64,000 bases of DNA. It comes from a virus. A program made the translations under genes and the position numbers. The notes beneath the pieces were generated by a model that saw only the letters and a list, made by a program, of their open reading frames with translations, was not told the origin of the DNA and made no database searches. Positions within the stretch are counted from its first letter, which is position 1. Each line of letters begins with the position of its first letter. Shown piece by piece: positions 43,244-64,000 of this stretch. The stretch spans positions 1 to 64,000 of IMG/VR virus record IMGVR_UViG_3300040806_003461; one strand, 5' to 3'.

Positions 43244-43951
43244 ATGGGCGCACCCTTACCAAAAATTGACTTGCCTATTTACGAGATGCTTCTTCCATCA
43301 ACAAAAGAAAAAATCAAGTATCGTCCTTTTACTGTAAAGGAAGAAAAGATTTTGTTGGTGGCACAAGAATCTGGTGAACCTGAGCAGCAAATCGTTGCGG
43401 TTAAACAAATTGTGAATAACTGTTTGATTGACCGAGACGTTTCAGAATTTGCAATGTTTGACCTTGAATTTGTAATGTTAGCATTGCGTTCAAGATCGGT
43501 GGATAATAAAATTCCAATCAAGATTCAAGACGAAGAGACAGGTGAAAAGGTTGAATTAGAATTAGATCTTGAAATGGTTGAATTGGAAACTCACGATGAA
43601 CACACAAATCGTGTACCAATTAATGAAAACTATACATTGTTTTTAAAATATCCAACCATTGACGAATTCATTCAAATTGCTACGTCTGATCCGAACGATC
43701 CTCTAACAAGTTATTTTATTTTGATTTCTTGTTTAGATAAGGTTGCTTCTGACGATGAGGTATTTGAATTTAAAGATTATAAACGAGAAGAAGTTGATAA
43801 GTTTATGGAAGATGTATCATCTGACGTTGTCCGAGGAATTGAAAAGTTCTTTGATACAATGCCAGCAATGAAATACGAAATTCCATATGCATTGAAAGAT
43901 GGCACAGAAAAAACATTTAAGGTAGCAGGCATAAACGCTTTTTTTTCCTGA
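43244..43951 (+). CDS. 26: gp26-family baseplate/tail assembly chaperone (zero-frame product)
   Basis: 235 residues from ATG 43244. GGAGA at 43232-43236 is correctly spaced for this ATG and too close to serve the in-frame TTG at 43238. The core LPIYEMLLPSTKEKIKYRPF, then TVKEEKILLVAQES and MFDLEFVMLALRSRSV, is the signature of the T4 gp26 baseplate-hub family (T4 gp26 is 208 residues). The gene ends in a run of eight T bases (43939-43946), then TCC TGA. Reading in the -1 frame from that run continues for 55 more residues up to the tape-measure start. Layout and signal resemble the lambda G/GT tail-assembly chaperones. Confidence 0.82.
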   Translation: MGAPLPKIDLPIYEMLLPSTKEKIKYRPFTVKEEKILLVAQESGEPEQQIVAVKQIVNNCLIDRDVSEFAMFDLEFVMLALRSRSVDNKIPIKIQDEETGEKVELELDLEMVELETHDEHTNRVPINENYTLFLKYPTIDEFIQIATSDPNDPLTSYFILISCLDKVASDDEVFEFKDYKREEVDKFMEDVSSDVVRGIEKFFDTMPAMKYEIPYALKDGTEKTFKVAGINAFFS

Positions 43952-44009
43952 TGCTGTGTCATATTAATCTAAAAGATTACTATAGAATAATTTTCGCCAT
44001 GGCACAGCA
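43939..44009 (+). promoter_or_regulatory. Programmed -1 ribosomal frameshift signal
   Basis: The zero-frame codons are GCT TTT TTT TCC TGA, giving a U_UUU_UUU slippery heptamer at 43939-43945. After a 6-base spacer that contains the zero-frame stop, TGCTGTGTCAT (43952-43962) pairs with ATGGCACAGCA (43999-44009): 11 base pairs with one G-U wobble. The 36-base loop contains a further perfect 6-bp hairpin, TAATCT (43965-43970) with AGATTA (43974-43979). Slippery site, spacer length and strong stem match known -1 frameshift elements. Whether it also forms a pseudoknot is not clear. Confidence 0.8.
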
Positions 44010-44112
44010 CCATAAATACTCTATAACGGAGATTGAAAATATGTTGCCGTACGAAAGAGATCTATATTTTGGTATGTTGACTGAACACTTAGAAAAACAA
44101 CAGGATAGGTAA
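43945..44112 (+). CDS. -1 frame extension of the gp26-family chaperone (GT-like)
   Basis: After tandem slippage the ribosome reads from TTC at 43945 in the -1 frame without a stop to TAA at 44110-44112. This adds 55 residues and gives a fusion of about 289 residues. The added part is FLMLCHINLKDYYRIIF, then AMAQHHKYSITEIENMLPYE and RDLYFGMLTEHLEKQ. The EI-x-x-(M/L)LP-(Y/W)-E-R pattern is typical of the second part of frameshifted tail chaperones. An internal ATG at 43999 could allow a free 37-residue product, but no ribosome site precedes it. The extension ends 5 bases before the tape-measure-like ATG. The reading is inferred from signal, open frame and position. Confidence 0.75.
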   Translation, partial: FLMLCHINLKDYYRIIFAMAQHHKYSITEIENMLPYERDLYFGMLTEHLEKQQDR

Positions 44113-46477: not shown

Positions 46478-46485
46478 TATTTATT
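46478..46485 (-). promoter_or_regulatory. Late-promoter-like AATAAATA
   Basis: One base from TATAAATA on the minus strand, overlapping the Hsp20 stop codon and lying just upstream of the 46451-46469 stem-loop. It is a candidate late start for the 75-residue gene. The match is imperfect. Confidence 0.4.
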
Positions 46486-46930
46486 CCGTTAGAAGTTCAG
46501 GCTCGGAAGAACCACCAATGGCGATCTTACGCGGTTTCTTTTCTTCAGGAATAACGTTCTCAAGTTCAATTGTAAGAATGCCGTCAACGAACTCGGCGCC
46601 ACGAACTACAATTGTGTCTGAGAGTGTAAAGGTACGACGGAATTGACGAGCGGAAATTCCACGATGTAGATAACTTCCTTCTGTCTCTTTGTCTTCTTTC
46701 TTACCTTCCACTGAAAGAACGCCGTCTTTCAATTCAACATCCAATTCATCACGTCCAAAACCTGCGACCGCAATCTCAATATGATAATTGTCGTCATCAA
46801 CTTTTACGATGTTATATGGAGGGTAATTTGTTTGACCCGGAGTTTGTTGGTGCATACGATCCAATACGCGATCGAAACCAATAAAGAAAGGGTCATTTAA
46901 TAGGTTGGCAGTAATTCTGCGTGCATTCAT
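46481..46930 (-). CDS. Small heat-shock protein, Hsp20/IbpA family
   Basis: 149 residues with an alpha-crystallin domain. Visible are an IbpA-like N-terminus NDPFFIGFDRVLDRM, YPPYNIVKVDDDNYHIEIAV, AGFGRDELDVELKDGVLSVE, HRGISARQFRRTFTL and GILTIELENVIPEE. A good ribosome site (AAGGAG, 8-base spacing) precedes ATG 46930. Small heat-shock proteins of this type are frequent in marine T4-like phages and are thought to hold phage or host proteins in a refoldable state. It has its own late promoter at 46995, which argues for a role during virion assembly rather than early takeover. Confidence 0.9.
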   Translation of the reverse strand: MNARRITANLLNDPFFIGFDRVLDRMHQQTPGQTNYPPYNIVKVDDDNYHIEIAVAGFGRDELDVELKDGVLSVEGKKEDKETEGSYLHRGISARQFRRTFTLSDTIVVRGAEFVDGILTIELENVIPEEKKPRKIAIGGSSEPELLTE

Positions 46931-63009: not shown

Positions 63010-64000
63010 CTAAACCTTGCGGAATATCAACGACGAATTTGCTCCGCCAAACCCAAAGGAATTTGACATCACTGTGGTCAGTTCCGCGTCAACACTTTGA
63101 CGGACAAGAGGATAATCCTCAAAACCTTCGTCGGTTTCTTGAAGGTTTGCCGTGCCAGCAATAAAGTTTTTATTCATCATAATGATTGAATAGATTGCTT
63201 CCTGAACACCTGCTGCGCCGATACCGTGTCCTGTTAGAGACTTTGTAGAACTAATTGGTGGTATATTGTCCGGACCAAAGGCTGATCTAATGGCCTGTAG
63301 TTCCTTTGTATCACCCACTGGTGTCCCAGTTGCGTGCGCATTAATATAGTCAATTTCTGGCCAATTGGGTTTCATTGCTTTTTGCATACAACGAACAGCA
63401 CCTTCGCCAGATGGATGCGCCATATCATATCCGTCCGAGGTTGCGCCATAACCGATAATTTCACAATAGATCTTTGCGCCTCGAGCAATTGCTGTATCGT
63501 AATCCTCAAGGATCAAACAGCCACTACCTTCTCCAGGAACGAATCCATCTCGGTTTTTATCAAACGGACGTGATGCCGCGGTAGGATTGTCATTATACTT
63601 TGAAGATAAAGCCATTAAAGCATCGAGCATTGCAGCAATACTATAATGATTAGTTTCAGCACCGCCAACAAGCATACGATCTTGATAACCGTTGGCAATG
63701 GTTCTAAATCCTTCACCAATACAGTGGCCGCTTGAAGAACAAGCTGAAGAGATTGTAAACCCTTCACCATAAATCTTAAGAGCTTTTGTAAGATTTGCAG
63801 AAGTAGTAGAGTTCATAATCTTAAACACAATAGTTGGTTCTCGATGAACTCCTTTACGAACATAAACGTCTTGCGCATATTGTTGAAACTCAGAAGATGA
63901 AGTACCCGATCCAAAATACAAGCCAGTATCTGGGTTGCTTACTTCATTATCAGTAAGTCCTGCATCTTCAATTGCTGAAAGACAAGACAAATAACCCATT
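63010..64000 (-). CDS. fabB: FabB-like beta-ketoacyl-ACP synthase, N-terminus beyond window
   Basis: About 330 residues are present; comparison with E. coli FabB indicates that about 76 N-terminal residues lie beyond the right edge, so the Met at 63999 is internal. Catalytic residues are intact: Cys in ISSACSSSGHCIGEG (local residue 87), His in INAHATGTPVGD (222), Lys in ISSTKSLTGHG, the second His in TGHGIGAAG, and the NSFGFGGAN end. Long stretches match FabB, for example RGAKIYCEIIGYGATSDG and GVQEAIYSIIM. The enzyme condenses malonyl-ACP with acyl-ACP; FabB is needed for unsaturated fatty acids. It has no fatty-acid neighbours in the window. It lies upstream of the early gene cluster in transcription order. 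Confidence 0.9.
   Translation of the reverse strand, partial: MGYLSCLSAIEDAGLTDNEVSNPDTGLYFGSGTSSSEFQQYAQDVYVRKGVHREPTIVFKIMNSTTSANLTKALKIYGEGFTISSACSSSGHCIGEGFRTIANGYQDRMLVGGAETNHYSIAAMLDALMALSSKYNDNPTAASRPFDKNRDGFVPGEGSGCLILEDYDTAIARGAKIYCEIIGYGATSDGYDMAHPSGEGAVRCMQKAMKPNWPEIDYINAHATGTPVGDTKELQAIRSAFGPDNIPPISSTKSLTGHGIGAAGVQEAIYSIIMMNKNFIAGTANLQETDEGFEDYPLVRQSVDAELTTVMSNSFGFGGANSSLIFRKV

Follow-up and report, generated by a model that had tools for sequence, protein, structure and literature searches.

A predicted −1 frameshift site joining gp26- and gp51-type domains in a T4-like phage locus is kept across distant relatives

Among described tail assembly chaperones (TACs), lambda G/GT combines a short form with a −1 fusion and is encoded directly before the tape measure gene; its slippery site, GGGAAAG, is unlike the T-run heptamer considered here. 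Several T4-like groups have reportedly kept frameshifting, whereas T4 is said to use genes 26 and 51 instead. Later papers (PMC10885494, PMC12846349) credit the identification of the T4-like tail assembly chaperone genes to Vladimirov, Gautam and Davidson (2022, Virology 566:9-15), and polyT slippery sequences are known in the TAC-N genes of T4-like phages (PMC12846349, citing Vladimirov et al. 2022). The TAC of the Pakpunavirus Adele likewise has a conserved −1 frameshift at a polyT tract at the end of TAC-N, with an extension that annotation often misses (PMC12846349). In cyanophages, gp51 has been noted as only ~20% of the length of its non-cyanophage counterparts (Sullivan et al. 2010, PMC3037559).

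The locus described here lies in a 64-kb stretch of DNA, the window of this analysis, which is part of an 80,661-bp IMG/VR virus record from a marine T4-like phage. It very probably encodes a two-form tail assembly chaperone through −1 frameshifting, a 235-aa TAC-N and a 289-aa TAC-NC, on the pattern of lambda G/GT. Both of its domains and families are those of T4-like TAC genes 26 and 51; the Adele TAC resembles it in the features given above and differs in its GTTTTT motif and its family, Vandenendeviridae (PMC12846349). The initial annotation had considered such frameshifting a mechanism not known to be described for T4-like phages. As far as the work of Vladimirov et al. (2022) is represented in the papers that cite it (PMC10885494, PMC12846349), the mechanism had already been reported in this group, and many other tailed phages use it; the locus is well supported by the present comparison, and the mechanism is not new.

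Table 1. Features of the putative frameshift locus, in window coordinates
Feature	Position	Strand	Basis or remark
gp26-family ORF / TAC-N (zero frame), 235 aa	43244..43951	+	stop TGA 43949-43951; PF12322, phrog_150
Slippery heptamer T_TTT_TTT	43939..43945	+	within T8 43939-43946; phase kept in relatives
Spacer TCCTGA, 6 nt, contains zero-frame stop	43946..43951	+	direct reading
Probable stimulatory stem	43952..44009	+	43952-43961 with 44000-44009, 10 bp
Inner 6-bp hairpin in stem loop, probably incidental	43965..43979	+	minimum-energy fold
−1 frame extension TAC-C / gp51 domain, 55 codons + stop	43945..44112	+	phrog_634, pN/pS, predicted structure
Probable tape measure protein, 681 aa	44118..46163	+	position, length, hydrophobic segments

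The zero-frame gene ends in GC[T TTT TTT] TCC TGA, with position 43939 as the third base of GCT; this gives U_UUU_UUU the phase that tandem slippage into the −1 frame requires. A T8 run occurs only once in the window, which has four T7 runs elsewhere. Starting with TTC at 43945, the −1 frame runs through 55 codons before it meets the TAA at 44110-44112, and the downstream ATG follows 5 bases past this stop. For the window locus alone, a dinucleotide model gives a chance of 0.022 that 53 codons are open, and the predicted fusion has 234 + 55 = 289 residues. The heptamer in its frame, the spacer with the zero-frame stop, the open −1 frame and a fusion of ~289 residues had all been read off the letters in the initial annotation, and each of these readings is correct.

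From this arrangement we infer slippage, its rate and the chaperone role as follows. Most ribosomes would terminate at the TGA at 43949 and release TAC-N, while the stem at 43952-44009 would pause a minority of them, whose P- and A-site tRNAs would re-pair on U_UUU_UUU one base back. Reading on in the −1 frame would yield TAC-NC, which ends in the gp51-like domain. On the model of lambda G/GT, the tape measure protein, encoded just downstream, would be coated by TAC-N, with TAC-C bringing in the subunits of the tail tube. The two-form architecture, the position before the probable tape measure gene and the genetics of T4 gp26 and gp51 all point to such a role in the tail.

Alignment of gp26-family loci, which the initial annotation had proposed as a check, bears out this reading. 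We collected 80 loci from IMG/VR with gp26 relatives at 55-100% identity; in all 79 whose gene end is readable, an in-phase T-run closely precedes the stop, past which the −1 frame stays open. Because the arrangement is kept in all relatives, we rejected a pseudogene or sequencing error as its origin. Among 67 distinct close loci the heptamer is T_TTT_TTT in 56, T_TTT_TTC in 10 and G_TTT_TTT in one, the phase being kept in 67/67, and nearly all close loci have one codon between the heptamer and the stop. T_TTT is present in 66 of the 67, compared with a probability of 0.19 per Phe, from codon usage in the same genes, that T precedes TTT. The extension is under purifying selection among the same loci (pN/pS 0.25 over 1276 pairs; mean pS 0.677, mean pN 0.172). 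Together with the covarying outer stem described below, the in-phase run and the open frame in relatives favor the proposal, also made in the initial annotation, that the gp26 family is a G/GT-type chaperone expressed by −1 frameshifting.

The layout recurs in cyanophages, in pelagiphage HTVC008M and in other distant T4-like phages, T4 excepted. A further 92 loci came from cyanophage, Vibrio and pelagiphage relatives, and 91 of them have the in-phase site: in 82 it is T_TTT_TTC, separated from the stop by one codon, and in nine T_TTT_TTT or T_TTT_TTC abuts the stop. Of 19 named T4-like records, 18 combine an in-phase T_TTT_TT[T/C/G] with a −1 frame that stays open for 54-63 codons; among them are phiM12, P-SSM2, S-PM2, P-HM1, HTVC008M, DLP6, Cr30, RHph_Y68, VH7D, pf16, PhiW-14 and S13. 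The exception in the 92-locus set (L186) has a premature gp26 stop upstream of the slippery site; its gp26 is 99% identical to that of HTVC008M, and the stop is possibly a sequence error. In Vibrio phage D503 (L097, 2121-2160) the −1 frame is open for 58 codons and TCA CTT TTC AAG TAA replaces the T-run, so that either the site has been lost or another shift signal is used.

The zero-frame ORF matches PF12322 T4_baseplate (E 1.5e-50) and phrog_150 baseplate hub (E 7.5e-54). Translated, 43939-44109 gives 57 residues that match positions 56-110 of the 121 in the phrog_634 profile, 'baseplate hub assembly catalyst' (gp51), with E 2.8e-22; a weaker match (E 4e-4) is to the C terminus of phrog_150 (gp26). 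By its sequence, the −1 extension is thus a known domain of the gp51 type. A tblastn search found it directly after gp26 in 579 phage records, mostly from cyanophages, whose annotation calls it gp51 or a hypothetical protein or leaves it out. Structure prediction gives an all-helical extension (pLDDT 74.9) and a more confident model of TAC-N (pLDDT 86.7). Foldseek with the predicted TAC-N retrieved gp26 proteins and one gp51 (Acinetobacter phage ZZ1, E 1.7e-5), and a 182-aa viral protein, A0A8S0HX62, is common to the matches of the TAC-N and TAC-C models. The tail assembly chaperone of HK97, a lambda-type homologue, ranks second among the PDB matches to TAC-N (2ob9), a fold similarity that is non-significant (probability 0.51, E 0.82); a sequence search of TAC-N against solved structures gave no relevant match.

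In cyanophages S-PM2 and P-SSM2, T_TTT_TTC likewise stands in phase and is followed by a −1 extension of 58-60 codons annotated as gp51. Reading the two frames as one fusion would correct such annotation and explain the truncated look of cyanophage gp51. The −1 extension is also present, and unannotated in the public records, in VH7D (L089), AdhaM_G2 (L093), S13 (L096) and ACG-2014e (L100). Seven loci (L036, L038, L039, L043, L051, L056 and L063) have a 92-aa ORF (MKVEQKFE.../MKLDQKFE...) after the TAC-C stop, for which the window has no counterpart.

T4 carries the two as separate genes, 26 and 51, on opposite strands. Using two-sequence searches and a profile built from relatives, we find that T4 gp26 consists of the N domain only (1.1e-21), whereas T4 gp51 has an N domain at 15-120 (weak) and a C domain at 200-244 (1.3e-8). 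The long form in T4 has its own full-length gene, in contrast to the window extension, which has no N domain in its frame. No slippery run is present at the end of the T4 gp26 gene (GAG TTC TTT GAG TTA CTA TAA), and what lies in the −1 frame beyond it is just gene 25.

The minimum-energy fold of the window RNA (−18.4 kcal/mol, z −2.32; 5 of 200 shuffles are as stable) holds the 11-bp stem, 43952-43962 with 43999-44009, and the inner 6-bp hairpin, both of which had been described in the initial annotation together with the suggestion to fold this RNA. The outer ten pairs, which enclose a 38-nt loop, covary in relatives; the 11th pair, 43962-43999, is kept in only 22 of 61. In an alignment of 55 distinct sequences the outer ten pairs form in 92.9% of cells compared with 88.7 +/- 0.6 after shuffling, and slid partners give 21-48%. 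The covariation score of this outer stem is 0.194 versus 0.118 in shuffled alignments, and 20 cells are changed on both sides versus 7.3. The key pair is U-A in 17 sequences, A-U in 16 and U-G in 15, a change that couples a Cys-to-Ser codon (TGY/AGY) with a third-base change in Ala or Val (GCA/GCG/GTG to GCT/GTT).

The stem also exceeds what coding in the −1 frame predicts: when that frame is redrawn with synonymous codons, 10.82 of 13 pairs are observed versus 9.16 +/- 0.15, and none of 200 draws rises above 9.59. Against the same null the mean folding z across sequences is −1.92, the window alone being unexceptional at −0.59. The key stem trait has changed at least nine times on the gp26 tree, and a tree-controlled covariation test has no power because the supported branches hold just two independent pairs. 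The inner hairpin, although present in the minimum-energy fold, is not conserved across relatives (59.1% paired versus 59.6% shuffled), and we rejected it as a component of the signal for want of comparative support.

Cyanophage loci differ from the window clade, with its long-range stem, in having their own local hairpins directly after the site (mean z −1.98 versus the synonymous null; 94% negative). We see an even chance that one slippery sequence, T_TTT_TTY, has been kept across very distant phages while the stimulatory RNA structure was rebuilt between lineages, as a long-range covarying stem in the marine clade and as short local hairpins in cyanophages, with the choice of stem tuning the TAC-N:TAC-NC ratio in each lineage. 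Such naturally occurring frameshift signals, related to one another but unlike in RNA structure, could be used to measure what sets the product ratio. Among open-licence papers we found no description of the stem, and covarying stems that differ by lineage may be a detail not described before.

The gene that follows encodes a 681-aa protein with two hydrophobic segments, and its positional homologues in relatives have about 550-710 aa. A tblastn search of this protein against the named phages gave no match, profile comparison (hmmsearch, hhalign) with T4 gp29 and phiM12 gave nothing convincing, and the match to the Cr30 tape measure is weak and composition-biased. It is probably the tape measure protein, an assignment made solely by position and form. 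In the Delftia phage PhiW-14 locus (L094, 1501-2477), what follows the gp26-gp51 frameshift pair is an annotated terminator and UvsW rather than a tape measure gene.

Other explanations can be weighed against these observations. If gp51 were a free small protein made by termination-reinitiation, it would start at the ATG that overlaps the gp26 stop (TGATG). That ATG is found in the window and in 27 of the 67 distinct close loci in all, and in many public records gp51 is given a CDS of its own, with a start close to the gp26 stop. The start is not conserved, however: the overlapping codon is ACG or GCG in 22 of the 67. Reinitiation also leaves the phase-locked T-run unexplained, and T4 gp51 itself fuses an N-terminal gp26-like domain to the C-terminal domain found in the extension. 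Because a third of relatives lack a start codon at the junction, we reject reinitiation and hold it to be very improbable. A fusion could instead arise from RNA polymerase slippage on the T8 run, a fraction of mRNAs with an extra U then encoding it, and T8 is long enough for some transcriptional slippage. Yet many relatives have only T6 (T_TTT_TTC), on which such slippage is unlikely, and the run is locked to the codon phase T_TTT_TTN, which transcriptional slippage does not need. The T6 relatives and the strict codon phase led us to reject this explanation, to which we give next to no credence. On the comparison of sequences, the pattern in relatives is the one expected from programmed −1 ribosomal frameshifting and is not expected from these alternatives.

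It is also conceivable, though unlikely, that the frameshifting is real and that both products serve baseplate hub assembly and not the tape measure protein. In PMC3004832, T4 gp26 and gp51 appear among the chaperones of hub assembly, and PhiW-14 lacks the tape measure gene after its pair. Set against this, the pair in the window and in most relatives directly precedes the 550-710 aa probable tape measure gene, and synthesis in two forms is a hallmark of tape measure chaperones. The T4 tape measure protein, gp29, is itself a hub component (PMC3004832), so the hub and tape measure readings overlap.

Two other genes of the window, both on the minus strand, were also noted. Close behind the tail genes, 46481-46930 encodes an Hsp20 small heat shock protein (PF00011, E 1.1e-20). 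At 63010-63999 lies a beta-ketoacyl-ACP synthase gene (PF00109, E 1.6e-29; PF02801, E 9e-29), likely a phage-borne fatty acid synthesis gene; since its match to the profile begins only at position 98, it probably extends past the window edge.
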